Source: Orobanche coerulescens
Lineage: Eukaryota; Streptophyta; Magnoliopsida; Lamiales; Orobanchaceae
NCBI GenBank assembly: GCA_033398695.1
Contig: CM065815.1
Coordinates: 100,716,501-100,780,500 of the forward strand
Length of the DNA stretch: 64,000 bases
Direction of reading: 5' to 3'
Position numbers and translations under genes: made by a program. The notes under the pieces are model-generated. The model saw only the letters and a list, made by a program, of their open reading frames with translations. It was not told where the DNA came from and ran no database searches. Positions 1,138-63,172 of the stretch are shown piece after piece. The number at the start of each line of letters is the position of its first letter. Within the stretch, counting starts at the first letter, position 1.

Positions 1138-1255
1138 TTATCAAATTAGACCTATAATTTGATAAAGTGATTTCTCCTCAAGACCTATTGAGAATCAATG
1201 ATTAGTATTCGAAACGCGTCGAATAAAAACCAAGTTTTGATGAAAAGCATTCACC
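1138..1255 (-). other. Four-hairpin RNA block, family A LTR
   Basis: In sense order: H1 arms GGTGAA and TTCATC; H2 ATTCGA and TCGAAT around CGCGTT; H3 CTCAA and TTGAG around TAGGTC; H4 TTATCAAATTA and TAATTTGATAA around TAGGTC. Other family A copies: 9789-9908, 23536-23655, 53386-53505 and 62585-62704. Folding is by eye. Confidence 0.7.
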
Positions 1256-1320
1256 AGGGAAAAACACAAAGTGTTCTCAATTCTTCAACATTCAATAATC
1301 TCCTATTACAACTCTCGCCA

Positions 1321-8117: not shown

Positions 8118-8943
8118 TGATACGATATCAAATATTCCAATCGAAGAAGCTCCAATAAAAATCGACATCCACGACGATACAAATTCGTATGGCCATGCAT
8201 CATCATACTTGGGAGAAAAGAACACGCGGATTGGAGTTACGTTGTTAATCGGAACCGGAGTAACGTAAAACTTGACGACGGAATCGGTCCAAAAGCATGG
8301 AAATTTCGGCCATATCATGCTTGAAAGGGACTCATGATTTGTCTTCATCTTGAAGATATCCTCCTTCCCCACCTTCCTTCAAATCGGCCAAAACATGATA
8401 TTTGATGAAGACTTTCATCAAAGATTTTCTTCATGTCATAGTCACCATAATAAGTCCAAGATGCTTGATATCATATCTTTCCAAAATCTTCATGATCCCC
8501 TCCTTGGATGATTCGGCCGATTGGTATCATTGCTAGGAAGTTTCATTTTCTTGTTTTGTTGTATTTTCTTATGGTTGTAAACTACTATATATAGTAGTAC
8601 ATTTTGTATTTGTAAGTATCTTGAAAATCAATAAACCTTGTATTTCTTTGAAATATACGTTGAACGAGTTCAACAAAACTTTAGTTATTATTTCGACGCG
8701 TCTCGAATTTTAACTTGATCAATTCTCAATAGGTCTTGAGGAGAGATTATCTTTATCGAGTTATAGGTCTAATTCGATAAAACACATCCAAATCCATATA
8801 CGATCCTACTTCACGGCCGAAACCGCTTAAATTCGGCCACCACCTTGTAATTTTTGGTTGATACTTTGATACTTGTTAAGACATAATAATCTTCCGTTGT
8901 ATTTCATACGCTTTACGTACACTTACATACGTAATTCATATCA
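8118..8943 (+). mobile_element. Solo LTR of family E
   Basis: An 826-bp LTR, TGATACGATATC to ATTCATATCA, matching the LTRs of element E (28315-29252). It is flanked by AGTCT on both sides (8113-8117 and 8944-8948), so an element inserted here and recombined between its LTRs. The TATA box lies in a perfect 18-bp palindrome at 8581-8598, the hairpin block at 8659-8780. The first ~150 bases keep the open C-terminal polyprotein tail. Confidence 0.95.
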
Positions 8944-9421: not shown

Positions 9422-10374
9422 TGATACGAATTCTCACTTGGGAGGCGAATTCGCTCTCGATACAGCGGAAGGCTTTTTGATGAACGGAAGCTATCGACAA
9501 GAAACTGTCGGGAACTGGTGACAACAGCTCGCTACAGCAACAATACTGACGAGTGATGAAGGCGGTAATTCGATACAGCCACAAGACAGGAATTTGGTCC
9601 AAATGAAAAGACTCGAAACAGGCCACCCCCAAACAGTGACACTCGAAACAGCACGTTTCGTTCGGAAGCGACTTTAAGCCAGGAAACACGTTCGAAGGAT
9701 CGAACAACACTTTGTACGAAATATTGAACAAGTATAAAACTGTATCGAAAAATAAACAGAATACCGAAACAAGGTATAAACAGCTGTTTTATCAAATTAG
9801 ACCTATAATTTGATAAAGTGATTTCTCCTCAAGACCTATTGAGAATCAATCAGATTAGTATTCGAAACGCGTCGAATAAAAACCAAGTTTTGATGAAAAG
9901 CATTCACCAGGGGAAACACAAAGTGTTCTTAATTCTTCAACATTCAATAATCATTACAACTCTACTGCCACTATTTATAGGCAAAAGCAGCCTGACAAGA
10001 TAATTTAAACTAATACAAGCTGAGCTTAGAATAATAAAAGATAATAAAAAGGTTCCTCATGTCACTTGTGGACAAAAGTAAAAGCTGGGTCTTTGCCTCC
10101 AAGTTGTTTGTTGACAGCCGCCCTTTTTGCCAAGAATCCTGCTGCTTTTGTAAGAGAAAGCTGAACATTCTTTTATTTGTTTAGTTGCCACTTGATCCTT
10201 TTCCCTTCCCCAAGGTGCTGCTTGTCTTTTGTTTAAGTTACTCCAATTCCGACTATCAAGGTAACTCCGTGCCTCGTTTCTGTTTTCTCGCCTAAGTAGG
10301 TTGTAGTGCGATCGAGGTGTTTTACGTCAATTCTTACTTCATCTTCTTCGCTTGGAGTATTCGGCTTCGTATCA
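9422..10374 (-). repeat. 3' LTR of element B
   Basis: TGATACGAA to TTCGTATCA, a 9-bp terminal inverted repeat. TATA box 9971-9980 and hairpin block 9789-9908. The 142 bases next to the internal region (10233-10374) encode the C-terminal tail of the polyprotein, ending GIGVT and a stop. Confidence 0.95.
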
Positions 10375-14993: not shown

Positions 14994-15063
14994 GATTGAT
15001 TAGCCTTGTAAGAATGTATTATGAATTTGAATGTGAAAGAAAACACTTTGTGTTTCTATCATT

Positions 15064-15184
15064 GGTAAATGATTTTTACCGAAACTTGATTTTTATTCGA
15101 CGCGTTTTCGAATATTAATCCGATTGATTCTCAATAGGTCTTGGGAAGAAATCACCTTATCGAGTTATAGGTCTAATTCGATAA
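15064..15184 (+). other. Four-hairpin RNA block, S1
   Basis: H1 GGTAAA and TTTACC; H2 ATTCGA and TCGAAT around CGCGTTT; H3 CTCAA and TTGGG around TAGGTC (one U-G pair), with an outer stem GATT and AATC across a tandem G-A mismatch; H4 TTATCGAGTTA and TAATTCGATAA around TAGGTC (one G-U pair). Second copy 17667-17787. Confidence 0.7.
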
Positions 15185-15355
15185 ACCCTTGTTCTTGATC
15201 GTTCAAGTCTTCTTGTTCGATATTTTTATTGTTATCCGATATTTCATCCATATTCATACACTCGAATTACCATATTCATAAAAGACTTCCGCTACGATAT
15301 TCCTACATATACTCCGACCGATACGTATCCACCTCTCCCCGGATAATTCGTATCA

Positions 15356-17074: not shown

Positions 17075-17958
17075 GATGTCCTAGAAAGTATAATCTCGCT
17101 GCCGACCGAACCCGACCGTGTCGTCCGACACGGCCCGTGCCGACACAACCCGACCGTGCCAGGCGACACGATCGAGTTCTACTCTTCCGGAAAGCGTCGC
17201 AAGTCTGCCGACCAGCCCGACCGTGTCATACGAACACGGTCGAGTCCTACTCGCCTAGAAGTGCCGAAACGCCTGCCGACCAGCCCGACCGTGTCAGTCG
17301 AACACGGTCGAGTCCTGCCGCACATGGCACATGCAGCCGCGGCCGTGTCAAGCGACACGGCCCGTGTCCAGCCGGCAGCCTCCTTTATTTTATACACTTT
17401 GTGTATTAATTTGTCTCCCTTTTTCCTCACATGGTAGGATGGCTTATAATCATGTTCATGTGTGTGATCCCCACCCTTAATATTTGATTCCTTGTAATCT
17501 TATTTTTTTTTATCTTGATTATTGTTTTTAATTTCTAAGATCATGTGATCTTGTAGTGTTTGATTCCTTAGAGTTAGGTTCCACCTCCTATAAGTAGATT
17601 GATTAGCCTTGTAAGAATGTATTATGAATTTGAATGTGAAAGAAAACACTTTGTGTTTGTATCATTGGTAAATGATTTTTACCGAAACTTGATTTTTATT
17701 CGACGCGTTTTCGAATATTAATCCGATTGATTCTCAATAGGTCTTGGGAAGAAATCACCTTATCGAGTTATAGGTCTAATTCGATAAACCGTTGTTCTTG
17801 ATCGTTCAAGTCTTCTTGTTCGATATTTTTATTGTTATCCGATATTTCATCCATATTCATACACTCGAATTACCATATTCATAAAAGACTTCCGCTATGA
17901 TATTCCTACATATACTCCGACCGATACGTATCCACCTCTCCCCGGATAATTCGTATTA
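16804..17958 (+). repeat. 3' LTR of S1
   Basis: 1,155 bp; it ends CGTATTA, so the terminal CA has become TA, while the 5' copy keeps CA. Target duplication TTTTC follows. GC cluster 16915-17385, hairpin block 17667-17787. Confidence 0.92.
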
Positions 17959-18193: not shown

Positions 18194-18346
18194 TGATACG
18201 AATTACGTATAAAATACGTATGAAATACAACGGAAGATTATTATGTATTGACAACTATCAAAGTATCACTCGAAAATTACAAGGGGTGGCCGAATTTGAA
18301 TGGGATTCGGCCGTGAGGTAGTATGATATACGGATTTTGATGTGTT

Positions 18347-18469
18347 TTATCGAACTAGACCTATAACTCGATAAAGGTAATCTCTTCCCAAGACCTATTG
18401 AGAATTGATCAAGTTAAAATCTCGAGACGCGTCGAAACAATAACTAAAATTTTGTTGAACTCGTTCAAC
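18347..18469 (-). other. Four-hairpin RNA block, S2
   Basis: H1 GTTGAA and TTCAAC; H2 TTTCGA and TCGAGA (one U-G); H3 CTCAA and TTGGG around TAGGTC; H4 TTATCGAGTTA and TAGTTCGATAA around TAGGTC, with two wobble pairs on the sense strand. Second copy 21739-21861. Confidence 0.68.
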
Positions 18470-18530
18470 GTATATTTCATAGAAATACAAGGTTTATTAA
18501 TATTCAAGATGATTTACAAATACCACAAGT

Positions 18531-18548
18531 ACTACTATATATAGTAGT
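18531..18548 (-). promoter_or_regulatory. S2 LTR TATA box in palindrome
   Basis: ACTACTATATATAGTAGT reads the same on both strands; second copy 21923-21940; also in family E LTRs. Confidence 0.65.
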
Positions 18549-21244: not shown

Positions 21245-21585
21245 AACAAGAATCAAGAGATAGTTCTTGATAAGAAATCGGACAGAAAATTTGCCAAGAA
21301 ATCCGTGAAGAATGAACCAAGAAGATGATCAAAGAATCTGATCTCCACCGTTCAGACTGTAGTTCAATGAGTTGGCTTACCTTTGTCAAAATTTCGTGAC
21401 GATCCAACGGTCGAATCCACAGGAAAATTTATTTTCTTCCGACTGCGCTAATCTGCCAATGTTATGCGAAAATTCTTCTAACCGTGAAGAACAACCCAAG
21501 AAGGTGACTAAATACTTCAACAAAAAAAATTCGGTGAATATAGTTGATCGCCCAAGGAGATGACCTTGGTCTCTGATACCACTTA
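21245..21585 (-). other. S2 5' leader
   Basis: 341 nt, conserved with S1 and S3, including the ACAAAGGTAAG splice-donor-like site (complement near 21380). Confidence 0.65.
21569..21581 (-). other. Primer binding site of S2 (tRNA-iMet)
   Basis: Sense TGGTATCAGAGAC after the spacer TAAG. Confidence 0.82.
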
Positions 21586-22994
21586 TGATACGAATTACGT
21601 AGAAAATACGTATGAAATACAACGGAAGATTATTATGTCTTGACAACTATCAAAGTATCACTCGAAAATTACAAGGGGTGGCCGAATTTGAATGGGGTTC
21701 GGCCGTGAGGTAGTATGATATATGGATTTTGATGTGTTTTATCGAACTAGACCTATAACTCGATAAAGGTAATCTCTTCCCAAGACCTATTGAGAATTGA
21801 TCAAGTTAAAATCTCGAGACGCGTCGAAACAATAACTAAAGTTTTGTTGAACTCGTTCAACGTATATTTCAAAGAAATACAAGGTTTATTAATATTCAAG
21901 ATGATTTACAAATACCACAAGTACTACTATATATAGTAGTTTCCAACCGTAAGAAAATACAACAAAACGAGAAAATGAAACTTCCTAGCAATATACTAAT
22001 CGGCCGAAATATCCAAGGAGTAGATACCAAGCATCTTGGTTTTATTAGGTGATTGTGACATGAAGAAATCCTTGATGAATCTTGGTTTTATTAGGTGATG
22101 GTGACATGAAGAAGAACCAAATATCATCCCTTGCAATCTTCAATTCGGCCGAACTCATCAAGGAGTGATTAGGAGGATTTTGTGAAGATATGATATCAAC
22201 CTCTTTGGAATTATTATGGTGACTAAGACATGAGGGACAATGACATGAAGGAAATGTGGGGAAGGCTTGGACGATTTGTAGTAATGGTGGGGAAGGAGAA
22301 ATATCTTCATGCATCTTGACAAATCATGAGTCCCTTTCAAGCATGATATGGCCGATTTTTCATGCTTTCGGACCGATTCCGTCGTCGAGTTTTACGTTAC
22401 TCCGGTTCCGATTAACAACGTAACTCCAATCCGCGTATTCTTTTCTCCTAAGTATAATGATGCATGGCCATGCGAATTTGCATCGTCGTGGATGTCGATT
22501 TTTATTGGAGCTTCTTCGATTGGAATATTAGATATCGTATCATGTGATACTTGACAAGGACAACAAAAATCAAGCTTCCATCCACTTGGTTTGGCCGAAT
22601 TATTGAAGTGTGGAGGGACCCAAGCATTGTAGTGGACTTTGAAAATGAAGTCTTGAAACTAGAAGAGACAAAAATCTTCATGATCTTGGACCAAATATGA
22701 TGCTGTCGGTTTTGTCATTTCTGGGATCCAATGGGTCCGAATTTGGTCCTATGGTCTCATAAGATTTGTAGCTCTCTTTCTTAGCTTTCCATGGCCACTT
22801 GAATCACCTGAATCGGATTTCGGACGAGAAAGTTATGGGCAAAATACTAAAGCGCTACTGAAGTCGTCGTGCGCGCGAGAATTGGTAATTTGTCCATGTA
22901 TTTTGCATGAGGATTTTATGTATGCCTGCGACTCAATCAAGCTTGGTCGGATAATCTTCTTTTTGTATTTGATGATGTTGACCGATTCGTATCA
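21586..22994 (-). repeat. 5' LTR of S2
   Basis: 1,409 bp, the same length as the other S2 LTR and nearly identical. Hairpin block 21739-21861, TATA palindrome 21923-21940, U3 block 22783-22847. Confidence 0.93.
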
Positions 22995-23168: not shown

Positions 23169-24121
23169 TGATACGAATTCTCACTTGGGAGGCGAATTCG
23201 CTCTCGATACAGCGGAAGGCTTTTTGATGAACGGAAGCTATCGACAAGAAACTGTCGGGAACTGGTGACAACAGCTCGCTACAGCAACAATACTGACGAG
23301 TGATGAAGGCGGTAATTCGATACAGCCACAAGACAGGAATTTGGTCCAAATGAAAAGACTCGAAACAGGCCACCCCCAAACAGTGACACTCGAAACAGCA
23401 CGTTTCGTTCGGAACCGACTTTAAGCCAGGACACACGTTCGAAGGATCGAACAAGACTTTGTACGAAATATTGAACAAGTATAAAACTGTATCGAAAAAT
23501 AAACAGAATACCGAAACAAGGTATAAACAGCTGTTTTATCAAATTAGACCTATAATTTGATAAAGTGATTTCTCCTCAAGACCTATTGAGAATCAATCAG
23601 ATTAGTATTCGAAACGCGTCGAATAAAAACCAAGTTTTGATGAAAAGCATTCACGAGGGGAAACACAAAGTGTTCTTAATTCTTCAACATTCAATAATCA
23701 TTACAACTCTACTGCCACTATTTATAGGCAAAAGCAGCCTGACAAGATAATTTAAACTAATACAAGCTGAGCTTAGAATAATAAAAGATAATAAAAAGGT
23801 TCCTCATGTCACTTGTGGACAAAAGTAAAAGCTGGGTCTTTGCCTCCAAGTTGTTTGTTGACAGCTGCCCTTTTTGCCAAGAATCCTGCTGCTTTTGTAA
23901 GAGAAAGCTGAACATTCTTTTATTTGTTTAGTTGCCACTTGATCCTTTTCCCTTCCCCAAGGTGCTGCTTGTCTTTTGTTTAAGTTACTCCAATTTCGAC
24001 TATCAAGGTAACTCCGTGCCTCGTTTCTGTTTTCTCGCCTAAGTAGGTTGTAGTGCGATCGAGGTGTTTTACGTCAATTCTTACTTCATCTTCTTCGCTT
24101 GGAGTATTCGGCTTCGTATCA
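23169..24121 (-). repeat. 5' LTR of element B
   Basis: 953 bp, same length as 9422-10374; I count about six differences. TATA 23718-23727, hairpin block 23536-23655. The target duplication CGAAT follows. Confidence 0.95.
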
Positions 24122-25164: not shown

Positions 25165-25318
25165 TGATACGAATTACGTATGAGAATGGACGTAAACTCG
25201 TAAGGAATGCAGCGGAAATATAATTGATCCTCCCAACACTCGAATATGTGTAACACTCGTAAGATATAACCGAAAGTAGGGCAATTCGGCTTACATAAAC
25301 AAGAACAATATGAATGAT

Positions 25319-25440
25319 TTATCAAACTAGACCTATAGTTTGATAAGATAATCTTTCCTCAAGACCTATTGAGAATCGATTCGATTAAAACTCGAAAACG
25401 CGTCGAATTATAACCAAGGTTTCGATGAAAAACATTCACC
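25319..25440 (-). other. Four-hairpin RNA block, element D
   Basis: H1 GGTGAA and TTCATC; H2 AATTCGA and TCGAGTT (one U-G); H3 CTCAA and TTGAG around TAGGTC, with an outer stem AATC and GATT that differs from the other families yet still pairs; H4 TTATCAAACTA and TAGTTTGATAA. The plus-strand H4 loop GACCTA is TAGGTC in sense. Second copy 36889-37010. Confidence 0.7.
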
Positions 25441-25503
25441 AAGAAAACACAAGTGTATTCTTATTTCTTCAACATACAATGGATGTTACAATGCTTACAC
25501 AAG

Positions 25504-25515
25504 CCTATATATAGG
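25504..25515 (-). promoter_or_regulatory. Element D LTR TATA box
   Basis: CCTATATATAGG, 63 nt upstream of the hairpin block in sense; second copy 37074-37085. Confidence 0.65.
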
Positions 25516-25937
25516 AGACTTCAAGTCTTCCTATAATAAGAGAAAATAATTCAAAGATTTATAAAATCTTTGAATAATCAAAATAAAACATAAAAGGAAC
25601 AACAATCCTAATTTTAGGGGAAACACAATCCCTAAAATGAGTAAAAAACAAGGCAAAGACAAACACACAAAAGAAAATACAAAAAAGGTGAAATCTGCCG
25701 GTAGGACTCAGTAGTGTCGCTGACACGGCCGCGGCGCGACAAGGACACTCGGCACGGGCGCGGCGCTGTCGGCGGTGACTCGGCCGTGTCTGCTTGACAC
25801 GGTCGCGGCGCGGCTGAGGACATCCGGCGGACTCGTCCGAAGCGGTGACCGGCACGGCGCGACACCGACAAGGACGTTCGGCGTGGGTCCGATCATGTCA
25901 CGGAACACGGTCGGGTCGTCTGGTAGTAGGTTTTGGC

Positions 25938-28314: not shown

Positions 28315-28889
28315 TGATACGATATCTAATATTCCAATCGAAGAAGCTCCAATAAAAATCGACATCCACGACGATGCAAATTCGCATGGCCATGCATCAT
28401 TATACTTGGGAGAAAAGAACACGCGGATTGGAGTTACGTTGTTAATCGGAACAGGAGTAACGTAAAACTTGACGACGGGATCGGTCCAAAAGCATGAAGA
28501 TTCGGCCAAGACATGCTTGAAAGGGACCTTACTTGACTTCATATCTTTGACAAGATAATGAAGATATTTCTCCTTCCCCACCTTACTACAAAATCGGCCC
28601 AAGCAATAAGATTTGATGAAGACTTTCATCAAATATCTTCTTCATGTCATAATCACCATGATAAGTCCAAAATGCTCCTTCCCCACCTTCCCCACAAATC
28701 GGCCCAAGCATGATATGGGATGAAGACTTTCATCAAGGATTTTCTTCATGTCTTAGTCACCAAATAAATCCAAGATGCTTGATATCTTGGACAAAATCTT
28801 CTTGATCCCATCCTTGGATATTTCGGCCGATTGGTATATTGCTAGGAAGTTTCGTTTTCTCGTTTTGTTGTATCTTCTTACGGTTGGAA

Positions 28890-28907
28890 ACTACTATATA
28901 TAGTAGT
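28890..28907 (+). promoter_or_regulatory. Family E LTR TATA box in palindrome
   Basis: ACTACTATATATAGTAGT, perfect 18-bp palindrome, 62 nt before the hairpin block; also at 34070-34087 and 8581-8598. Confidence 0.65.
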
Positions 28908-28968
28908 ACTTGTGGTATTTGTAAATCATCTTGAAAGTTATAAACATTGTATTTCTCTTGAAATATAC

Positions 28969-29090
28969 GTTGAACGAGTTCAACAAAACCTTGGTTATTA
29001 TTTCGACGCGTCTCAAATTATAACTTGATCAATTCTCAATAGGTCTTGAGGAGAGATTATCTTTATCGAGTTATAGGTCTAATTCGATAA
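28969..29090 (+). other. Four-hairpin RNA block, family E
   Basis: H1 GTTGAA and TTCAAC around CGAG; H2 TTCGA and TCGAA around CGCGTC (this copy reads CAAAT in the right arm, the 3' copy CGAAT); H3 CTCAA and TTGAG around TAGGTC with outer stem GATC and GATT; H4 TTATCGAGTTA and TAATTCGATAA around TAGGTC. Other copies 34149-34270 and 8659-8780. Confidence 0.72.
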
Positions 29091-29256
29091 AACACATTGA
29101 AACCCATACACTACCCTACCTCACGGCCGAAACCACATAAATTCGGCCACCACCTTTTATTTTCATTGTTACTTTGATACTTGTAAAAACCGTGATAATC
29201 TTCCGTTGTATTTTATACGTTTTACGTACACTTATATACGTAATTCGTATCATAAG

Positions 29257-29269
29257 TGGTATCAGAGCC
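29257..29269 (+). other. Primer binding site of element E (tRNA-iMet)
   Basis: TGGTATCAGAGCC, canonical, after the spacer TAAG. Confidence 0.92.
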
Positions 29270-29303
29270 ATTTGTCTCACGGTTCTCGACGTTACTCAAG
29301 AAG

Positions 29304-31466
29304 ATGGCATTCACCGATGAAGAAGTAGCACAACTACGTGACGTTCTTCGCGGCTTACCGGAGCCCAGAATCCAAGCACGACGAGGATACGACGCCATGC
29401 ATGCACCACGACATGCTGATGAATACAAGACAAGCGAACTTCCGGAGTTCGTAGGCGGCACCGATCCCGAGGTTTATTTGGAGTGGGAAAGGAAAATTGA
29501 ACGAATGTTTGAGTTCAAGGATCTCAATGACGAGGTACGTTGCTATTATGTGATTCTCAAACTTGGAAAGGAGCTTCCCTTTGGTTTGAGCGAATGAAGA
29601 CACAAAGAGTTCGTCTTAGGAAAAGAGAAGATACGTTCGTGGGATTCTCTAAAAAGAAACTACGAAAAAGATATGTCGGCTACACACAAGCTAAGCTTGT
29701 ATCGAAAAATTTCTGACCTCACGCAGGGAAGCTAAGTGTCGAGGAGTACATCGAGGAGTTTGAAAACTTATCCTTGATGGGAGAACTTGAAGAAAGCGAA
29801 GAATTACGGATGTCCGTTTCCTTCGAGGTTTGAATAAAAATATTGCTAATTCCGTGGAACTCTACCCTATTCCGACTTTGATACTTTATGCGGACTTTGC
29901 ATAAAGTTGGAAAATCAAAACAAGACAAAACTTTCTAAACCCGAATTCCCATCTAAATACGGAAATACCAACTTTGGCGCGAGTTCTAGCTCGTTTCCAA
30001 AAACTGTCACCACAAGTCCACCCGTTACTACCATTCCAAAAACTCCTATCACCCCAAAAGAAACAAGCCTATCTAAAGTCCGGTGTTTCAAATGTCAAGG
30101 ATTTGGACACTATCAAAGTGCTTGTCCAAATCGGAGAATTGTGACGCTACGAGAAGCCATAGCCGTCCGAGAAGAATTACTAGCCGAAGAAGAAAGAATT
30201 GGAGACGTCTTTAACTTGGAAGCTGGCGAAGAAGAAGAAGAATGTGAGGCATACGATGCCCCGAACTATGACACGAACCTCGTCCTTCGCATGTTACAAA
30301 CGAAGGCAGCCCCGAGTGACGAAGAACAACGAGACCAAATCTTTCACATGAAGTGTCGTGTCGGAGAGAAATGGTGTATCTTGATCATTGACGGTGGAAG
30401 TTGTACAAACATGGCATCGAGCGAGATGGTCTCAAAGCTCGGATTGATCACCACGGCCCATCCAAAGCCGTATGCACTCCATTGGCTCGATGATGGAAAC
30501 AAGGTGAAAGTATCAAGACAAGTGAAGGTCGGGCTCACCATGGGTTCGTATGGTGATGATATTACATGCGATGTACTACCGATGGACGCATGTCACGTAT
30601 TATTGGGAAGACCTTGGTTATTTGATCGGGACGTACTACATCGAGGGAGGAGTAACGAGTATGAGTTACGTGACAAAGGTAAAAAAATTGTTCTTAAACC
30701 TATGTCACCTCAAGCTATCCGGACGATGAGTTCGAAAAAAGTCGAAGGACCGAAACTTACGATGCTTGCAAATGAAAAAGAAGTCGAACACGCCATTGAC
30801 GATGGCGAACGTGTTTATTTGATGATGATCAAAAAGGTCCGAAATCTTGCCACCAAATCACACCACGAAGAAGAGATAGATACACTATTACACGAGTTCT
30901 CGGATGTATTTCCCGAAGACTTGCCGGTAGGATTACCACCTATCCGCGGAATTGAACACCAAATTGATCTTGTACCAGGAGCTCCATTACCGAACAAAGC
31001 GGCGTATCGTTGTAATCCCGAAGAAACCAAAGAACTACAACGTCAAATTGATGAACTCATGAATCACGGATATGTCCGAGAAAGTTTAAGTCCGTGTGCG
31101 GTTCCAGTCCTACTTGTACCAAAAAAAGACGGATCATGGCGAATGTGTATTGACAGTAGAGCCGTGAATAACATCACCGTCAAGTATCGGTTCCCCATCC
31201 CGAGACTAGACGACATGTTAGACGAGTTACATGGCTCGGTTATATTTTCAAAAGTTGATTTACGGAGCGGATACCATCAAATTCGCATGCGAGAAGGAGA
31301 CGAATGGAAGACGGCATTTAAAACAAAGAATGGACTTTACGAATGGGTTGTGATGCCATTCGGCCTCACTAATGCCCCGAGCACTTTTATGAGGTTGATG
31401 AACGAGGTTCTCAAACCTTTCTTGGGAAAGTTTGTTGTCGTATACTTAGACGACATTTTGATCTGA
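29304..31466 (+). pseudogene. gag-pol: Element E Gag, protease and N-terminal RT
   Basis: Starts MAFTDEEVAQLRDVLRGLPEPR at 29304. Gag contains LPEFVGGTDPEVYLEWERK; the frame shifts near 29570 and several times up to about 29890 (short single-base losses). From 29907 it is open for 519 codons: zinc knuckle [14 protein letters not shown] (about 30080-30121), protease [10 protein letters not shown] (Asp at 30390) and LLGRPWLFD, then RT with [38 protein letters not shown] and catalytic YLDD (31443-31454). It stops right after YLDDILI, where two bases are missing against the D sequence. Confidence 0.9.
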
Positions 31467-32331
31467 TCGATCCTTAGAGGAGCATCTCGAACATTTGCGG
31501 CACGTATTTGAAACTCTAAGGGAGCGAAACTTTATGGAAAGCGGGAGAAGTGTACTTTCCTAGTCGAGAGTCTTGTCTTTCTCGGCTATGTTGTTTCGAA
31601 AGAAGGAGTTTCGGTCGACCAAGAGAAGATCGCGGCAATCAAGTCGTGGCCGACCCCAAAGACAATCACGGAGGTACGATCATTTCATGGCCTCGCTTCT
31701 TTTTGCGACGATTCATACGGGACTTTAGCACCATCTCCAGTCCGATCACGGAGTGTCTAAAAAAAGGAACCTTTGCATGGAACGAGGCGGCCCAAAAGGC
31801 TTTTGAAAAATTAAAAGGAAAGTTATGTGAAGCACCAATTTTAACATTACCCGATTTTTCGCAACCATTTGAGGTGGAATGCGCTAGTGGAGTTGGAATC
31901 GGGCAGTACTTATTCAAAGAGGCCGCCCCATCGCCTATTTTTCGGAGAAATTAAGTGGCGCCCGAGTGAATTATTGTACTTACGACAAGGAGTTCTATGC
32001 TATCGTGAGAGCACTCGATCATTGGAGTCACTATTTACGTTCGAAACATTTCGTGTTACATTCGGATCACGAGTCGTTGAAATACATCAACGGACAAAGC
32101 AAGCTAAGCCCGAGGCATGCAAAATGGGTGGAATTTTTACAATCTTTTCACTTTTCATCCAAGTACAAAGACGGGAAGAGTAATATAGTGGCGGATGCAC
32201 TATCAAGACGGTATGCCTTACTGTCGATTCTAGATGTTCGTTTGTTGGGGTTCGAGACTTTGAAAGATCATTATAGGGACGATTTGGACTTCGGAGAAAT
32301 TTTCACCCGTTGTAAAACGGGCCCTTAATAA
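31467..32331 (+). pseudogene. pol: Element E RT thumb and RNase H
   Basis: RT continuation EEHLEHLRHVFETL in shifted frames. The GACCAGAAA expected at LRDQKLYG lacks a base. RNase H has lost the catalytic Asp codon of CDASG (reads [10 protein letters not shown], in-frame loss) and then shifts again near 31900. From 31966 the frame is right again: [36 protein letters not shown]. Two TAA/TAG-type stops near 32326 end it. Confidence 0.85.
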
Positions 32332-33645
32332 GAATTTTTTTTACAGGATGGCTTTCTTTTCAAGGGAAATAAATTATGTGTGCCGAGACATACGATTCGG
32401 GAATTGCTAGTCCGGGAGGCACACGGAGGAGGACTAGCCAGTCATTTCGGCTCGGCTAAGACCGTAGAGGTGCTAAAAGAGCATTTATTTTGGCCAAAAA
32501 TGTATGGTGACGTAAGCACAATCGTAAGTAAATGCGTCACTTGTCACATGATGAAAAGTTCGTTCAAGCCAAGTACATACATGCCGTTGCCAATACCGTT
32601 ACGACCATGGGAGGATGTCTCGATGGATTTTATTGTGGCTTTACCTCGTACTCAACGAGGCAAAGACTCGATCATGGTGGTCGTCGACCGTTTTTCGAAA
32701 ATGGCTCACTTTATAGCATGCCACAAAACCGATGATGCAAGCAATGTGGCGGACTTGTACTTCCGGGAAGTAGTTCGTTTACACGGAGTTCCAAAAACTA
32801 TCGTGTCGGATCGAGATTCTAAATTTCTGAGTTACTTCTGGAATACTTTATGGAGAAAAGTGGGTACTAAACTCCTATTCAGTACTTCACATCACCCACA
32901 AACCGATGGACAGACCGAGGTGACTAATCGAAACTTGGGAGCATTATTGCGAGGATTGGTGAATAAAACACAAAAGGATTGGGACGTTAAACTTGCACAT
33001 GTGGAATTCGCATACAACCGATCACCCGGCTTCGCCACGGCCCATTCACCTTTTGAAGTAGTATACGGAATAAATCCGCACATGCCATTGGATTTGATTC
33101 CCTTGCCGAGCGACGAATTGGTTCACAAAGACGCCGAATCAAAACTCAAATCAATGATGAAGTTACATGAAAAGATACGGGAACGGATTAAAGAAGTGAA
33201 TGAAATTTACAAACGGAAGTCGAACAAAAATAAAAAAGCGAGATTATTTGATGTTGGCGACTTAGTTTGGATACATTTGAGAAAAGAAAGATTCCCAAGC
33301 AAACGAAAGAACAAATTAATGCCGAGAGCCGAAGGTCCGTACAAAATTGTGGGAAAAGTGAACGACAACGCCTACAAAGTCGAACTTCCGGGCGAATACG
33401 AAGTACACGCGACTTTCAACGTAGGTGATCTCTCGCCTTACCTTGACGATGGCATTACGGAATTGAGGTCAATTCCTTTCAAAGAAGGAGGGAATGATAC
33501 GATATCTAATATTCCAATCGAAGAAGCTCCAATAAAAATCGACATCCACGACGATGTAAATTCGCATGGCCATGCATCATTATACTTGGGAGAAAAGAAC
33601 ACGCGGATTGGAGTTACGTTGTTAATCGGAATAGGAGTAACGTAA
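32332..33645 (+). CDS. pol: Element E integrase with LTR-encoded tail
   Basis: Open from 32380 for 421 codons. HHCC zinc region ([23 protein letters not shown]), catalytic triad [15 protein letters not shown] and [14 protein letters not shown] all present, C-terminal domain FDVGDLVWIHLRKERFPSKRKNKL, then NVGDLSPYLDD, ELRSIPFKEGGNDT. It crosses the polypurine tract and goes 50 codons into the LTR: IKIDIHDD, LYLGEKNTRIGVT, GIGVT, stop. This is the only complete DDE integrase in the window, though the parts upstream are broken. It would insert cDNA with 5-bp target duplications. Confidence 0.88.
   Translation, partial: EFFLQDGFLFKGNKLCVPRHTIRELLVREAHGGGLASHFGSAKTVEVLKEHLFWPKMYGDVSTIVSKCVTCHMMKSSFKPSTYMPLPIPLRPWEDVSMDFIVALPRTQRGKDSIMVVVDRFSKMAHFIACHKTDDASNVADLYFREVVRLHGVPKTIVSDRDSKFLSYFWNTLWRKVGTKLLFSTSHHPQTDGQTEVTNRNLGALLRGLVNKTQKDWDVKLAHVEFAYNRSPGFATAHSPFEVVYGINPHMPLDLIPLPSDELVHKDAESKLKSMMKLHEKIRERIKEVNEIYKRKSNKNKKARLFDVGDLVWIHLRKERFPSKRKNKLMPRAEGPYKIVGKVNDNAYKVELPGEYEVHATFNVGDLSPYLDDGITELRSIPFKEGGNDTISNIPIEEAPIKIDIHDDVNSHGHASLYLGEKNTRIGVTLLIGIGVT
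33481..33494 (+). other. Polypurine tract of element E
   Basis: AAAGAAGGAGGGAA before the LTR; encodes part of FKEGGND. Confidence 0.9.
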
Positions 33646-34432
33646 AACTTGACGACGGGATCGGTCCAAAAGCATGAAGATTCGGCCAAGACATGCTTGA
33701 AAGGGACCTTACTTGACTTCATATCTTTGACAAGATAATGAAGATATTTCTCCTTCCCCACCTTACTACAAAATCGGCCCAAGCAATAAGATTTGATGAA
33801 GACTTTCATCAAATATCTTCTTCATGTCATAATCACCATGATAAGTCCAAAATGCTCCTTCCCCACCTTCCCCACAAATCGGCCCAAGCATGATATGGGA
33901 TGAAGACTTTCATCAAGGATTTTCTTCATGTCTTAGTCACCAAATAAATCCAAGATGCTTGATATCTTGGACAAAATCTTCTTGATCCCATCCTTGGATA
34001 TTTCGGCCGATTGGTATATTGCTAGGAAGTTTCGTTTTCTCGTTTTGTTGTATCTTCTTACGGTTGGAAACTACTATATATAGTAGTACTTGTGGTATTT
34101 GTAAATCATCTTGAAAGTTATAAACATTGTATTTCTCTTGAAATATACGTTGAACGAGTTCAACAAAACCTTGGTTATTATTTCGACGCGTCTCGAATTA
34201 TAACTTGATCAATTCTCAATAGGTCTTGAGGAGAGATTATCTTTATCGAGTTATAGGTCTAATTCAATAAAACACATTCAAACCCATACACTACCCTACC
34301 TCACGGCCGAAACCACATAAATTCGGCCACCACCTTTTATTTTCATTGTTACTTTGATACTTGTAAAAACCGTGATAATCTTCCGTTGTATTTTATACGT
34401 TTTACGTACACTTATATACGTAATTCGTATCA
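33495..34432 (+). repeat. 3' LTR of element E
   Basis: 938 bp, same length as the 5' LTR. Hairpin block 34149-34270 (H4 right arm reads TTCAATAA, one base changed). TATA palindrome 34070-34087. Confidence 0.95.
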
Positions 34433-36738: not shown

Positions 36739-37888
36739 TGATACGAATTACGTATGAGAATGGACGTAAACTCGTAAGGAATGCAATGAAATATAATTGA
36801 TCCTCCCAACACTCGAATATGTGTAACACTCGTAAGATATAACCGAAAGTAGGGCAATTCGCACATAAACAAGAACAATATGAATGATTTATCAAACTAG
36901 ACCTATAGTTTGATAAGATAATCTTTCCTCAAGACCTATTGAGAATCGATTCGATTAAAACTCGAAAACGCGTCGAATTATAACCAAGGTTTCGATGAAA
37001 AACATTCACCAAGAAAACACAAGTGTATTCTTATTTCTTCAACATACAATGGATGTTACAATGCTTACACAAGCCTATATATAGGAGACTTCAAGTCTTC
37101 CTATAATAAGAGAAAATAATTCAAAGATTTATAAAATCTTTGAATAATCAAAATAAAACATAAAAGGAACAACAATCCTAATTTTAGGGGAAACACAATC
37201 CCTAAAATGAGTAAAAAACAAGGCAAAGACAAACACACAAAAGAAAATACAAAAAGGTGAAATCTGCCGGAGGACTCGGTAGTGTCGCTGACACGGCCGC
37301 GGCGCGACAAGGACACTCGGCACGGGCGCGGCGCTGTCGGCGGTGACTCGACCGTGTCTGCTTGACACGGTCGCGGCGCGACTGAGGACATCCGACAGGG
37401 ACTCGTCCGACGGTGACCCGGCACGGGCGCGGCCCGACAAGGACGTTCGGCGTGGGTCCGATCGTGTCTGGAACACGGTCGGGTCGTCGCGTAGGTTTTG
37501 GCTTATCGGCATAGTTCGACTCGACCGCGTGCGGACAACACGGTCGAATCTCGTGGGCGTGACTTGTACATTTCTCGACGAGTGCGGCACGGCCGTGTCG
37601 ACGACACGGTCGGGTCCGACCGGCGTTGCTCGCCGATTCCAGTGGTGATTTTTCCTACGGTGGTGAATTTTCCGGCAGTTGGATAATTTCCAGATATTGA
37701 ACATTTTTCGGCAGGGTTGGATGTCGACCTTCCAGACAAAGATGACACGGGCCGCTGAGACCGATACTCCACGTCTTATGTCCGTTTTCTCGCCTAAATA
37801 CATAGTAGTCCGTGCATGGCGTGTAGTAAGGTCATTTATATCGATCCTTACTTCGTCTTCTTCGTTCATATCAAATGATTCCGTATCA
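36739..37888 (-). repeat. 5' LTR of element D
   Basis: 1,150 bp against 1,173 in the other copy, the length difference lying in the GC-rich cluster (37265-37640). TATA 37074-37085, hairpin block 36889-37010. Target duplication TAAAC follows. Confidence 0.93.
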
Positions 37889-37903
37889 TAAACAAACAGC
37901 CCC
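37889..37903 (-). mobile_element. MITE copy M1, right end
   Basis: TAAACAAACAGCCCC, the outer end of the MITE split by element D; TTA target at 37904-37906. Confidence 0.8.
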
Positions 37904-53048: not shown

Positions 53049-53974
53049 TGATACGAATTCTCACTTGGGAGTCGAATTCGCTCTCGATACAGCGGAAGTC
53101 CTTTTGATGAATGGAAGCTATCGACAAGAAACTGTCGGGAACTGGTGACAACAGCTCGCTACAGCAACAATACTGGCGAATGATGAAGGCGGTGATTCGA
53201 TACAGCCACAAGACAGGAATTGGGCCCAAATGAAAAGACTCAAAACAGCACGTTTCGTTCGGAAGCGACTTTAAGACAGGAAACACGTTCGAAGGATCGA
53301 ACAACACTTTATACGAAATATTGAACAAGTATCAAGCTGTATCGAAAAATGAACAGAATATCGAAACAGGGTATAAACAGAAGTTTTATCAAATTAGACC
53401 TATAATTTGATAAAGTGATTTCTCCTCAAGACCTATTGAGAATCAATCAGATTAGTATTCGAAACGCGTCGAATAAAAACCAAGTTTTGATGAAAAGCAT
53501 TCACCAGGGAAAAACACAAAGTGTTCTCAATTCTTCAACATTCAATCATCTCATTACAACTCTACTGCCACTATTTATAGGTAAAAGTGGCCTGACAAAA
53601 TAACTTAAACTATTACAAGCTGTTCTTTAAAATAATGAAAGGATAATAAAAGGTTCTTCAGGTCACTTGTTGACAAAAGTAAAAGCTGGGTCTTTGTCTC
53701 CAAGTTGTTTCTTGTGATACCGCCCTTTTGCCAAGAATCCTGCTGCTTTTGTAAGAGAAAGCTGAACATTCTTTTATTTGTTTAGTTGCCACTTGATCCT
53801 TTTCCCTCCCCAAGATGCTATTTGTCTTTTGTTTAAGTTACTCCAATTCCGACTATCAAGGTAACTCCGTGCCTCGTTTCTGTTTTCTCGCCTAAGTAGG
53901 TTGTAGTGCGATCGAGGTGTTTTACGTCAATTCTTACTTCATCTTCTTCGCTTGGAGTAGTCGGCTTCGTATCA
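53049..53974 (-). repeat. 3' LTR of element C
   Basis: 926 bp. TATA 53571-53580, hairpin block 53386-53505. At 53707-53716 the CTGACAG present in the other LTR is garbled. 53833-53974 encodes the polyprotein tail. Confidence 0.93.
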
Positions 53975-58167: not shown

Positions 58168-59077
58168 AACGTCAAAGATCTTGGGCTCTCCGTGATACGA
58201 GATCGACATGGCCAACCGAAGAAAGACGATGTAGACGACCATGCAACCATGCATACGGCCATGCACACACATGCACCTACACGACATGCACTTACTTCTT
58301 TGGACGAGACGACTAATACGAGACTTGAAGTAACCTTGAACATATTTTACGTATGCATGAAGAAATTACGAACCATGCACTCATCCACCTTCTTCATGCA
58401 TTGAAACCGATGGTTCCCCTCCCTTGAATAAGTCACCTACATGGCAACAAAGTCATCAAAGCATGATAATAATAATCATCAAGAATCAAACCAAAGTCTT
58501 CTAACATGATTAGTTATTTTATTTTGTTTCTTGTCTTTGGTGAAGATTTGCTCAAGATTGACTAGTCATGATCCGAAATTTACTAGTCCGAGTGAAAAAG
58601 GCGAAAAGCGGACAAAATTACCAATTCCTGCGCGTATGACTATTTCGTAGCAGTTTTGGTATTTTAATCATAACTCTCTCATACGAAGTCCGATTTAGGT
58701 GATTCAAGCGGCCATGGAAAGATAAAAGAAAGATCTATAAATCATGTGAAACGGTACAAGGTCCAATTATGCTTATATCAAGCCACACGAACCGTTCAAA
58801 TGTGCAGTGATTTTTATGGCCGAAAATTGATGAAGATTTGTGAAGATTTTGTCCAAGATTGATGAAGATTTTCCATGCCTTCATTTTTCAAGTTCATGTC
58901 TACATTTTTCAAAGTCTTACAAGAAGATCAAATGGAGAAGATTTTGGGTCCCTCCACACTTCAATAAATCGAACCAAATCAAGGAGGATGGAAGCTTGGT
59001 GTTGATTTTTGTTGTCTTGTTAGAATTGTTTAATCTTTGTTTGATTTTAGTTGATTTTTGTGTGATCTTGTAATGGC

Positions 59078-59086
59078 TATTTATAA
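59078..59086 (+). promoter_or_regulatory. S3 LTR TATA-like box
   Basis: TATTTATAA, 66 nt before the hairpin block; second copy 61884-61892. Confidence 0.55.
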
Positions 59087-59152
59087 GCCACAATTTCAGC
59101 CCTTGAAAGATATCTTGAAAGTTATAAACATTGTATTTCTCTTGAAATATAC

Positions 59153-59274
59153 GTTGAACGAGTTCAACAAAACCTTGGTTATTATTTCGACGCGTCTCGA
59201 ATTATAACTTGATCAATTCTCAATAGGTCTTGAGGAGAGATTATCTTTATCGAGTTATAGGTCTAATTCGATAA
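59153..59274 (+). other. Four-hairpin RNA block, S3
   Basis: Same arms as family E: H1 GTTGAA and TTCAAC, H2 TTCGA and TCGAA, H3 CTCAA and TTGAG, H4 TTATCGAGTTA and TAATTCGATAA. Second copy 61959-62080. Confidence 0.7.
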
Positions 59275-59436
59275 AACACATTCAAACCCATACACTACCC
59301 TACCTCACGGCCGAAACCACATAAATTCGGCCACCACCTTTTATTTTCATTGTTACTTTGATACTTGTAAAAACCGTGATAATCTTCCGTTGTATTATAT
59401 ACGTTTTACGTACACTTACATACGTAATTCGTATCA

Positions 59437-59757
59437 TAAGTGGTATCAGAGCCCAAGGTCATCTCCTTGGGCGATTTATTCAACGAATTTTTAGTTGAAG
59501 TATTTAGTCACCTTCTTGGGTTGTTCTTCACGGTTAGAAGAATTTTCGCATAACATTGGCAGATTGGCGCAGTCGGAAGAAAATAAAGTTTCCCGTGGAT
59601 TCGACCGTTGGATCGTCACAAAATTTTGACAAAGGTAAGGCAACTCATCGAACTACAGTCTGAACGGTGGAGATCAGATTCTTTGATCATCTTCTTGGTT
59701 CATTCTTCACGGATTTCTTAGCAAATTTTCTGCTCAGTTTCTTGATCATTAGAAGAG
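59437..59757 (+). other. S3 5' leader
   Basis: 321 nt conserved with S1 and S2; splice-donor-like ACAAAGGTAAG near 59629. Confidence 0.65.
59441..59454 (+). other. Primer binding site of S3 (tRNA-iMet)
   Basis: TGGTATCAGAGCCC, canonical. Confidence 0.92.
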
Positions 59758-60807
59758 ATGGACATGACCATCTCCGAATTCTTGGTAAAGCTACGTGATG
59801 CTTTACATGACTTACCGGAACGTCGACGAGGAGGAGAAGGCCTATGTTCCCCACGCCATACTAACGAGTTCGAGTTGAACGAACTTCCGAAGTTCATCGG
59901 AGGTACCGACCCCGAAATTTATTTGGAATGGGAACGTAAGATGGATCGCTTGTTCGAGTTTAAAGGTCTTGACGATGAGAAGCGTTGCAGATATGCAATT
60001 ATCAAGTTGGTTAAAGGCGCTTCAGTTTGGTTCGAATTAAAGAAGAAGCAAAGGACTCGTGCTGGAAAAAACAAGATCCGTTCGTGGGAGTCGTTGAAAA
60101 GAAAACTTCGCAAGAGATACGTACCTTTCGGCTCGAGTTCGGCTCTCAAAATCATAACAACATCAGCCCCTAACTCGGTTTCTAAATCTCTCGACTTGCC
60201 TAATGAGACGAGTTTGCTGGAGGTGAGTTATTTCATTGGCCAAAGGTTCGATCATGTGCAAGATGTTTGCCCGACTCTTGCTACCCGAGACGAGTTAATA
60301 GCCGAGGAAGAACAAGAAAGGCTAGGCGACATTCTCAAGTTTGATATAGAGGACGAAGGAGAAGAAGAATGTGTAGTTTACGATGCTCCCGATTATGATA
60401 CAGACTTAGTTCTTCGTACTTTAGAAACCAAATCGGTTTCAAATGATTTGGAGCATCAGGACGAGTTAACGAGTGAGGAACTCACAAGTATACTTTTTAG
60501 TTCTACACAACCGTCCGTTTCCCGAGCTACAGAAGATGAAGAGATTGAGGACAAGGCGATTGTTCCCCAAAATTTCTATGAGGATATTTCTATTATTGTT
60601 AAAAAATTGGAGGATCCCAATCCAATTGTTCTCATTGATCCGGTTCCCGACACCGACCAACGTAAAAGCTATGTGGCTACATGTGACTGGAAAATAGTAA
60701 AAGACGAACTCATTGATGAAAGGAATGAGGACAAGATTTGTGCCCACATGACGCCGGAAATGGAAATTATTCCGTTAAACCACAAATCTTTTTGGGGATT
60801 CCGTTAA
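59758..60807 (+). CDS. S3 Gag-like protein with ruined zinc knuckle
   Basis: 349 codons. The N-terminal half is the Gag of the autonomous families (LPKFIGGTDPEIYLEWERK, KGASVWFE, SWESLKRKLRKRYVP), but the capsid middle is missing and the knuckle reads YFIGQRFDHVQDVC, having lost its first two Cys ([14 protein letters not shown] in the relatives). After an acidic linker (YDAPDYDTDLVLRTL, as in the autonomous Gag-PR linker) comes a part shared only with S2 (IIVKKLEDPNPIVLIDP, DTDQRKSYVATC, IIPLNHKSF). No protease motif. The frame stops at 60807 and resumes in the next entry. Any role as a Gag partner is inference. Confidence 0.82.
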   Translation: MDMTISEFLVKLRDALHDLPERRRGGEGLCSPRHTNEFELNELPKFIGGTDPEIYLEWERKMDRLFEFKGLDDEKRCRYAIIKLVKGASVWFELKKKQRTRAGKNKIRSWESLKRKLRKRYVPFGSSSALKIITTSAPNSVSKSLDLPNETSLLEVSYFIGQRFDHVQDVCPTLATRDELIAEEEQERLGDILKFDIEDEGEEECVVYDAPDYDTDLVLRTLETKSVSNDLEHQDELTSEELTSILFSSTQPSVSRATEDEEIEDKAIVPQNFYEDISIIVKKLEDPNPIVLIDPVPDTDQRKSYVATCDWKIVKDELIDERNEDKICAHMTPEMEIIPLNHKSFWGFR

Positions 60808-61210
60808 GGGAAATGGTAGACACCCAGATACGTCGTTTGTTTTTATTTTGCAGGTTGTTCTTTTAAAAATGCAATCCCAAGCAAACGTCAACACATCCGA
60901 CGAAAATTACATCTTCAACCCGGGAGGAGCACAACCCTATCCTAATACCAACCGTCCTTGGATTTTAGATTCGAGGACGAATCTCTTTAAAGGAAGAGGG
61001 GATGATACGAGATCGACATGGCCAACCGAAGAAAGACGACGAGACCATGCAACCATGCATACGGCCATGCACACACATGCACCTACACGACATGCACTTA
61101 CTTCTTTGGACGAGACGACTAATACGAGACTTGAAGTAACCTTGAACATATTTTATGTATGCATGAAGAAATTACGAACCATGCACTCATCCACCTTCTT
61201 CATGCATTGA
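60808..61210 (+). pseudogene. S3 C-terminal continuation into the LTR
   Basis: After a frame change near 60800, the S2-like C-terminus goes on: VVLLKMQSQANVN, DENYIFNPGGAQPYP, SRTNLFKGRGDDT through the polypurine tract and about 65 codons into the LTR (HTHAPTRHALTSLDET, TRLEVTL). Confidence 0.7.
60999..61012 (+). other. Polypurine tract of S3
   Basis: AAAGGAAGAGGGGA before the 3' LTR; encodes part of FKGRGDD. Confidence 0.9.
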
Positions 61211-62242
61211 AACCGATGGTTCCCCTCCCTTGAATAAGTCACCTACATGGCAACAAAGTCATCAAAGCATGATAATAATAATCATCAAGAATCAAACCAA
61301 AGTCTTCTAACATGATTAGTTATTTTATTTTGTTTCTTGTCTTTGGTGAAGATTTGCTCAAGATTGACTAGTCATGATCCGAAATTTACTAGTCCGAGTG
61401 AAAAAGGCGAAAAGTGGACAAAATTACCAATTCCCGCGCGTATGACTATTTCGTAGCAGTTTTGGTATTTTAATCATAACTCTCTCATACGAAGTCCGAT
61501 TTAGGTGATTCAAGCGGCCATGGAAAGATAAAAGAAAGATCTATAAATCATGTGAAACGGTACAAGGTCCAATTATGCTTATATCAAGCCACACGAACCG
61601 TTCAAATGTGCAGTGATTTTTATGGCCGAAAATTGATGAAGATTTGTGAAGATTTTGTCCAAGATTGATGAAGATTTTCCATGCCTTCATTTTTCAAGTT
61701 CATGTCTACATTTTTCAAAGTCTTACAAGAAGATCAAATGGAGAAGATTTTGGGTCCCTCCACACTTCAATAAATCGAACCAAATCAAGGAGGATGGAAG
61801 CTTGGTGTTGATTTTTGTTGTCTTGTTAGAATTGTTTAATCTTTGTTTGATTTTAGTTGATTTTTGTGTGATCTTGTAATGGCTATTTATAAGCCACATT
61901 TTCAGCCTTTGAAAGATATCTTGAAAGTTATAAACATTGTATTTCTCTTGAAATATACGTTGAACGAGTTCAACAAAACCTTGGTTATTATTTCGACGCG
62001 TCTCGAATTATAACTTGATCAATTCTCAATAGGTCTTGAGGAGAGATTATCTTTATCGAGTTATAGGTCTAATTCGATAAAACACATTCAAACCCATACA
62101 CTACCCTACCTCACGGCCGAAACCACATAAATTCGGCCACCACCTTTTATTTTCATTGTTACTTTGATACTTGTAAAAACCGTGATAATCTTCTGTTGTA
62201 TTTTATACGTTTTACGTACACTTACATACGTAATTCGTATCA
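61013..62242 (+). repeat. 3' LTR of S3
   Basis: 1,230 bp, 14 shorter than the 5' copy because of a small indel near the start. Hairpin block 61959-62080, shared U3 block 61464-61535. Confidence 0.93.
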
Positions 62243-62257
62243 CTCCGATACCACTTA

Positions 62258-63172
62258 TGATACGAATTCTCACTTGGGAGTCGAATTCGCTCTCGATACA
62301 GCGGAAGTCCTTTTGATGAATGGAAGCTATCGACAAGAAACGCCGGGATCGGTGACAACATGCCAAAGAACAATTGGCGAGTGATGAAGGCGGTGATTCG
62401 ATCTGACCACAAGACAGAATTGGGCCCAAATGAAAAGACTAAACAAAGACGTTTCGTTCGGAAGCGACTTTAAGACAGGAAACACGTTCGAAGGATCGAA
62501 CAACACTTTATACGAAATATTAAACAAGTATCAAGCTGTATCGAAAAATGAACAGAATATCGAAACAGGGTATAAACAGAAGTTTTATCAAATTAGACCT
62601 ATAATTTGATAAAGTGATTTCTACTCAAGACCTATTGAGAATCAATCAAATTAGTATTCGAAACGCGTCGAATAAAAACCAAGTTTTGATGAAAAGCATT
62701 CACCAGGGAAAAACACAAAGTGTTCTCAATTCTTCAACATTCAATCATCTCATTACAACTCTACTGCAACTATTTATAGGTAAAAGTGGCCTGACAAAAT
62801 AACTTAAACTATTACAAGCTGTTCTTTAAAATAATGAAAGGATAATAAAAGGTTCTTCAGGTCACTTGTTGACAAAAGTAAAAGCTGGGTCTTTGTCTCC
62901 AAGTTGTTTGCTGACAGCCGCCCTTTTGCCAAGAATCCTGCTGCTTTTGTAAGAGAAAGCTGAACATTCTTTTATTTGTTTAGTTGCCACTTGATCCTTT
63001 TCCCTCCCCAAGATGCTATTTGTCTTTTGTTTAAGTTACTCCAATTCTGACTATCAAGGTAACTCCGTGCCTCGTTTCTGTTTTCTCGCCTAAGTAGGTT
63101 GTAGTGCGATCGAGGTGTTTTACGTCAATTCTTACTTCATCTTCTTCGCTTGGAGTAGTCGGCTTCGTATCA
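62258..63172 (-). repeat. 5' LTR of element C
   Basis: 915 bp. TATA 62770-62779, hairpin block 62585-62704, polyprotein tail 63031-63172. The stretch 62340-62450 differs from the other LTR at nearly every CAG/CTG site. Confidence 0.93.

Follow-up and report, generated by a model that had tools for sequence, protein, structure and literature searches.

A predicted chain of four hairpins, likely kept by selection on the sense RNA, in the LTRs of CRM-like and gag-only retrotransposons of Orobanche coerulescens

To our knowledge, little is known about how the non-autonomous LTR retrotransposons of plants are recognised by their helpers. Gammaretroviruses carry successive leader hairpins with identical GACG loops, which are linked to packaging and dimerisation. 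The block described here is similar in that successive hairpins bear identical loops, and different in the loop itself and in its place relative to the primer site. For BARE1 and BARE2 of barley, a parasite element in the particles of its helper and conserved dimerisation and packaging signals have been described (PMC3735527); the likeness is drawn from that description, and BARE1/BARE2 belong to the Copia superfamily, unlike the CRM-like elements of this study. Among the literature matches listed, as far as their available text goes, packaging signals of plant elements are mentioned for barley BARE only. The non-autonomous TR-GAG CRMs of Coffea (PMC5818461) are LTR elements without pol that occur beside autonomous CRMs, as S1, S2 and S4 do here; they differ in that the available sections of that paper give no RNA element that explains helper use. 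Recombinant centromeric retrotransposons of grasses resemble the present elements in exchange between families, LTR segments included, for which co-packaging and template switching were proposed, and differ in that the available parts of that report (PMC4079200) connect the junctions with neither the start site nor an RNA structure.

The window, meaning the whole stretch of 64,000 nucleotides that was analysed, lies at C15:100716501-100780500 of the 3.65-Gb genome. Elements A, D and E contain gag and pol domains and are autonomous. S1, S2 and S4 lack pol domains and are gag-only elements; each has two LTRs and a gag-related ORF, which is how TR-GAG elements are defined. A scan of the window identified four CCHC knuckles, one in E, two in A (57343 and 13746) and one in D (35847), and none in S1, S2 or S4. 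Perfect 5-bp target duplications flank E, S1, S4 (Table 1) and D (TAAAC), and the duplication of A, GGAGC, was read off its flanks. The primer site of A, D and E is of the tRNA-Met type, as in group A of the CRM clade, and we take its tRNA to be initiator Met. The chromoviruses of CRM group A have LTRs ending in TGATG/CATCA (Neumann et al. 2011, PMC3059260). They share with A, D and E the 5-bp duplications and a pol ORF that reaches into the 3' LTR (here 10233-10946 and 25938-28325 on the minus strand, and 32332-33645 on the plus strand). Because the LTR termini of A, D and E are TGATA.../...TATCA, unlike those of group A, we call these elements CRM-like only. Their integrase has a C-terminal tail beyond the SH3_Tf2-1 domain, the place at which a CR motif would be expected in group A. 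An A-rich stretch in the 5' UTR is mentioned in the available text of the group A survey, and leader hairpins are not (PMC3059260).

The best named matches of the D pol ORF are polyproteins of Lactuca, Silene and Cichorium (74-80% over the aligned part), and the retroelement proteins of the window resemble plant polyproteins. No relative of the D pol protein was found in viral contigs. By blastp, the S4 ORF matches the gag parts of A (48-66%), D (42%) and E (44%), the S1 ORF matches A (31%) and S4 (29%), and the S2 ORF matches S1 (39%) and S4 (60%) and no other element of the window. The S1 ORF has a weak Pfam gag match (E 2.2e-5), and the S2 ORF has no Pfam match. The S1 ORF (15617-17074, plus strand) is a gag N-terminal part fused to a tail like a pol C-terminus, residues 351-461 being 47% identical to residues 621-724 of D pol; neither an RT nor an integrase domain was found in it. 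Among 4,046 scored candidates, a single relative of the S2 ORF (19545-20924, minus strand) was found, an Orobanche minor protein with a gag domain (39% over 58%). S2 has an apparent LTR-internal-LTR-internal layout, in which 1413 bases are repeated at 98.7% (18190-19602 and 21582-22994) and the repeat extends past the LTR. In both LTRs of E, the U3 contains a 104-bp unit twice (28570-28779 and 33750-33959).

Table 1. Elements, hairpins and copies of the block in the window. Positions are those of the window.
Feature	Position	Strand	Remarks
Element E, autonomous	28315..34432	+	LTRs 28315-29252 and 33495-34432; target duplication GTTTT; gag CCHC knuckle 30084
Element S4, gag-only	58193..62242	+	own U3, R-U5 of E; target duplication CTCCG
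Element S1, gag-only	14225-17958	+	target duplication TTTTC
Predicted transcription start of E (U3/R border)	28928..28928	+	TATA+33; E/S4 identity jump
H0 of E, small bulged hairpin preceding H1	28949..28968	+	MFE of 342-nt leader
H1 of E, GTTGAA/TTCAAC	28969..28984	+	block alignment, fold
H2 of E, loop CGCGTC	28993..29025	+	one inner pair broken in this copy, at 29015
H3 of E, 7-bp stem TTCTCAA/TTGAGGA	29027..29058	+	loop TAGGTC 29040-29045
H4 of E, 11-bp stem TTATCGAGTTA/TAATTCGATAA	29063..29090	+	loop TAGGTC 29074-29079
Primer binding site of E (TGGTATCAGAGCC)	29257..29269	+	
Block, E 5' LTR	28969..29090	+	
Block, E 3' LTR	about 34149..34270	+	
Block, S4 5' LTR	about 59153..59274	+	
Block, S4 3' LTR	about 61959..62080	+	
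Block, S1 5' LTR	about 15063..15184	+	
Block, S1 3' LTR	about 17666..17787	+	
Block, S2 LTR 18194-19151	about 18347..18468	-	
Block, S2 LTR 21586-22543	about 21739..21860	-	
Block, D LTR 25165-26338	about 25319..25440	-	
Block, D LTR 36739-37889	about 36889..37010	-	
Block, A LTR 802-1724	about 1138..1258	-	
Block, A LTR 9422-10374	about 9789..9909	-	
Block, A LTR 23169-24121	about 23536..23656	-	
Block, A LTR 53049-53974	about 53386..53506	-	
Block, A LTR 62258-63172	about 62585..62705	-	
Block, E-like single LTR 8118-8943	about 8659..8780	+	

The first-pass annotation had reported a block of about 120 nt in the LTRs of six families, and 16 LTR copies bear this out. There are 16 matches to the H4 core in this stretch (shuffle mean 0.05), and all 16 blocks can be aligned with one another. 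The four successive hairpins it had drawn by eye, H1 to H4, were recovered in the RNAfold MFE structures of the E, A, D and S1 blocks. H3 and H4 present the same loop, UAGGUC. In E, the H3 stem is followed outwards by a two-base purine mismatch and then a 4-bp stem, GATC/GATT. When leaders are folded, H0-like hairpins of differing letters appear in E, S4, S1, D and S2. The stems vary by family: H4 is also found as TTATCGAATTA/TAATTCGATAA, as TTATCAAACTA/TAGTTTGATAA and, in L232/L233, as TTGACGAGTTA/TAACTCGTTGA; H2 as ATTCGA/TCGAAT or GTTCGA/TCGAAC; and H1 as GTTGAA/TTCAAC, GGTGAA/TTCATC, GGTAAA/TTTACC or GTTTGA/TCAAAC. One family on C1, that of the GTTGGACGAG type, has a weak H1.

Rfam at gathering score produced 0 matches in the window. 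The available text of PMC3059260, PMC4079200, PMC5818461, a study of LTR structure (PMC3601003) and a paper on plant structured RNAs (PMC12218528) does not describe the block, nor does that of papers on enod40 (PMC10578108) and MLV dimerisation (PMC2925334), a 2025 review of plant LTR elements (PMC12786077) or PMC3735527. A literature search for UAGGUC with hairpin generated nothing related among the matches listed, and the matches listed for other literature searches included nothing closer. Within Rfam and the available text of these sources the block was thus not found described before, and, depending on its function, it would belong to a known kind, the leader packaging hairpins.

Single blocks were folded with RNAfold and compared with 200 shuffles each, which gave z values of -2.9 (E), -3.9 (D), -3.9 (S1) and -4.8 (A); the antisense strand of the E block gave -1.1. 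The wider sample of 110 parsed copies comprises 16 from the window and 94 from C1 loci, some of them overlapping, and one more match was unparsable. H3 was present in the MFE structure of 101/110 and H4 in that of 100/110. In folds of whole leaders, taken between the predicted start and the primer site, the MFE of E, S4, S1, D and S2 contained the array. It was absent from that of A, though the A block alone folds into it. RNAalifold on the sense strand, a check proposed in the first-pass annotation, recovered little of the structure, in parts only, from a plain MAFFT alignment of 85 copies, with energies of -5.6 for the sense strand, -3.1 for the antisense strand and a mean of -0.08 for shuffled columns.

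Conservation of pairing was examined on a tree. Five of the 110 copies were lost at the loop parse, and the remaining 105 collapsed to 84 distinct rows, which were aligned on the loop motifs. The block copies all come from one genome, those beyond the window from chromosome C1 only. The test covered 32 pairs from H2-H4. For the null, substitutions were redistributed over the tree by branch length in 1000 runs. 95.3% of the pair cells were able to pair, compared with a null mean of 85.2% and a maximum of 92.3% (reached in 0/1000), and slid controls gave 31.5-50.9% paired. Six double changes kept pairing, all on internal branches, against a null mean of 1.35 and a maximum of 5 (0/1000). Two of the six arose by transversion and four by transition at both partners, and two of these four fell at one CpG-bearing H4 pair. 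Chance and CpG decay were both rejected as the origin of the pairing.

Single changes away from Watson-Crick pairs yielded G-U and A-C in a ratio of 22:3 on internal branches (27:4 and 22:4 with two other trees) and 26:22 on tips. The non-stem counterpart was 100:90 on internal branches and 96:95 on tips; since the non-stem columns are without bias, the G-U excess is not accounted for by mutation being generally biased between strands. Internal changes towards Watson-Crick pairs showed a weaker bias (13:8), and both directions together gave 35:11 (p = 0.00027, one-sided). Transversions made up 6/66 internal changes in stems and 195/385 in non-stem columns. While the lineages were active, G-U was tolerated and A-C mostly was not; after insertion both decay alike. 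Tolerance of G-U on internal branches together with equal decay on tips is expected under selection on the sense RNA. The tree null, the internal G-U bias and the antisense z of E together support the earlier proposal of a selected RNA structure on the sense strand, and the block hairpins have likely been kept by such selection, as judged from aligned sequences. Significant covariation of single pairs, which the first-pass annotation had looked to R-scape to provide, did not materialise: an R-scape-like per-pair G-test with the tree null identified 0/32 significant pairs (best E 16, one misparsed row, L226, included). The outer stem of H3 had been described as co-varying, and here its innermost pair is not strictly kept, being C x A in 45/87 distinct rows.

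The six families are not independent witnesses of the structure, the lineages in the window being A, D, S1 and the E group. Alignments over most or all of the LTR, at 79-88%, connect E, S2 and the single LTR at 8118-8943, and the R-U5 of the third gag-only family, which we named S4, is 99% identical to that of E. The LTRs of D and S1 have U3 patches in common, the first ~118 nt at 76-77% and others. The description of the LTRs as otherwise dissimilar therefore fits A and E best. Between these two, the block aligns over ~111-116 nt (84%), and elsewhere in the LTRs at most two short stretches do (49 and 58 nt). Alignable non-coding DNA of lineages such as A and E consists mainly of the LTR tips, the primer site and the block island; D and S1 have more in common.

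That the block lies near the 5' end of the transcript is supported by a start site predicted in two ways, from TATA+33 and from the E/S4 junction. The TATA box of E, TATATATA, is at 28895-28902, and the block starts ~41 nt past the predicted start. Measured from the H3 loop, most TATA boxes of the copies are at -142 to -156. E and S4 were compared in 20-nt windows. In each of the four windows up to 28927, 5-9/20 positions are identical (9/20 at 28908); in all 17 windows of 28928-29267, 19-20/20 are (20/20 at 28928), and the identity then drops to 3-9/20. The common part consists of R-U5, reaching the LTR end, plus TAAG and the primer site. TAAG and the primer site, 17 bases in all, hardly differ in S1 and A either and so are little informative.

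Change-points were located in 103 copy pairs in which the block region is alike and the upstream parts differ; copies were reused and some loci overlap, so the pairs are not independent. 67 of the 103 change-points lie at -120 to -95 from the H3 loop, 21 lie near -220 (copies of one local array, C1:20.55 Mb) and 15 elsewhere. The U3s of the 99 copies with enough flank form 13 clusters. The S4 U3 is also found at C1:34.6 Mb in two copies, L230 and L231 (93-100% over -300 to -150), whose R-U5 is of the S2 type (100% to S2 over -90 to 0, 87% beyond). Between -150 and about -103, L230 resembles neither S4 nor S2 well (65-71%), and its junction is less clean than that of E/S4. Because E-like LTRs retain their own U3 with the E-type R-U5, it is simpler to infer a transfer out of E into S4 than the reverse.

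Junctions of this sort result from first strand transfer, an established retroviral mechanism, when two RNAs occupy one particle. The E/S4 junction resembles a relic of strong-stop transfer from one co-packaged RNA to another. The first-pass annotation had suggested that the gag-only elements use a helper. This is favoured to the extent that they have no CCHC knuckle and that the R-U5 exchange of E and S4 at the predicted start suggests a shared particle.

The two loops offer a clue to what reads the block. Their 12 UAGGUC columns have 0 internal substitutions and 14 on tips, and the 78 arm columns have 102 internal substitutions; the loop figure is biased, because the sample was partly selected by the H3-loop pattern (nine loci by both loops) and the parse favours intact loops. 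Since the loops are constant and the stems drift as pairs, recognition is likely by a trans factor that reads loops displayed on stems. Gag with its knuckle is what dependents would have to borrow in trans, and the block would accordingly read as a packaging signal. Under this proposal, the four-hairpin chain of the sense RNA would act as packaging signal close to the predicted start; the Gag nucleocapsid of A, D and E would bind the two identical UAGGUC loops, and the RNAs of S1, S2 and S4 would be packaged alongside helper RNAs. Transcription from the TATA box would be followed by Gag binding and packaging, and the junction would arise by intermolecular strong-stop transfer in a shared particle. 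By computation, and with the start predicted, the block has what a packaging signal should have, an RNA structure that is conserved and lies close to the genomic 5' end. We counted in favour of packaging that the array occurs in autonomous and gag-only elements and CCHC in autonomous Gags only. Textbook packaging signals are often downstream of the primer site, and the position of the block upstream of it was counted against. On balance, we felt that the chances were about even that the block is a packaging signal usable in trans by gag-only elements.

A wider reading is more tentative: one UAGGUC leader module may be the common packaging currency of the whole network of CRM-like elements, with U3s, U5s and coding regions exchanged around it, gag-only elements dependent on it, and R-U5 swaps recording the sharing of particles. 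The block would be a compact, testable RNA module common to helpers and dependents, and the R-U5 chimeras would be a genomic record of which RNAs may have shared a particle. Should Gag bind the loops, trans-mobilisation could be predicted from sequence in genomes of this sort.

The hairpins could instead serve reverse transcription, holding the RNA 3' end or strong-stop DNA within R for first strand transfer, also between elements. The conserved island begins at the predicted R start and E/S4 resembles the product of an R-U5 exchange, which would suit this role; transfer within an element needs only matching copies of its own R, however, and loops constant across families with differing U5 are left unexplained, so we consider it rather unlikely. 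To the same low degree of belief we assign control of translation, or of the split between translated and packaged RNA, by a cap-proximal hairpin array. Here the array is near the predicted 5' end and folds well, and separate RNA pools are known for BARE from the available text of PMC3735527. Loops that are identical and lack internal substitutions speak for a specific binder more than for a plain steric effect, and the block is retained in gag-only elements despite their reduced ORFs.

More doubtful again is a role in export, stability or 3' end formation, exerted by a host RNA-binding protein that reads the loops. One loop in two copies would fit such a protein, as would ATAA(A) in the H4 3' arm of most rows, but the L232/L233/L241 family is without ATAAA there and keeps H4 pairing, and nothing points to any particular host protein. 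H4 as a poly(A)-signal hairpin was rejected on the same family. A packaging signal read by Gag was placed ahead of strand transfer, translation and host-protein binding, with roughly an equal chance of being right or wrong.

Dimerisation by kissing loops, the role that GACG hairpins play in retroviral leaders and one the first-pass annotation had listed, is improbable: UAGGUC lacks self-complementarity, and the sense strands of the six elements contain a single copy of its complement, GACCTA, where 5.2 are expected (3/100 shuffles were as low). Kissing between the two UAGGUC loops is accordingly disfavoured. Dimerisation through other parts is conceivable, and the H2 loop contains the palindrome CGCG. 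A DNA-level element with dyad protein sites, or shared ancestry without selection, is hardly credible: CpG decay could turn one H4 pair from G-C into A-T and so mimic matched changes in its two arms, but neither a strand-specific G-U bias confined to internal branches nor the scarcity of internal stem transversions would follow.

The block is abundant in the genome. The exact H3 core was found 16,118 times (8,204 + 7,914; reversed control 0), and a loops-only pattern, with three loop motifs fixed and the stems free, 8,610 times (4,460 + 4,150; reversed control 2). Counting Watson-Crick combinations genome-wide, one H4 pair is T-A in 8,874 and C-G in 3,701 cases; in the sample (n=87 rows), the same pair is T-A in 54, T-G in 19, C-G in 12 and C-A in 0. 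Outside this genome, the H3 core was picked up in 21 viral stretches and 76 prokaryote ones, none with the block, and the two-loop pattern matched at least 120 stretches of viral contigs, chance matches only; by nhmmer, 0/217 such loci contain the block.

Blocks follow one another at near-constant spacing at C1:115.55-115.58 Mb (~2.4 kb), C1:11.188-11.203 Mb (~3.6 kb) and C1:128.148-128.165 Mb (~3.2 kb), which suggests tandem arrays of retroelement units. Within the window, satellite-like arrays with periods near 142, 173 and 200 bases occupy much of 37903-53048, and a 36-bp unit is repeated 4.1 times at 49060-49207 with 99% matches.
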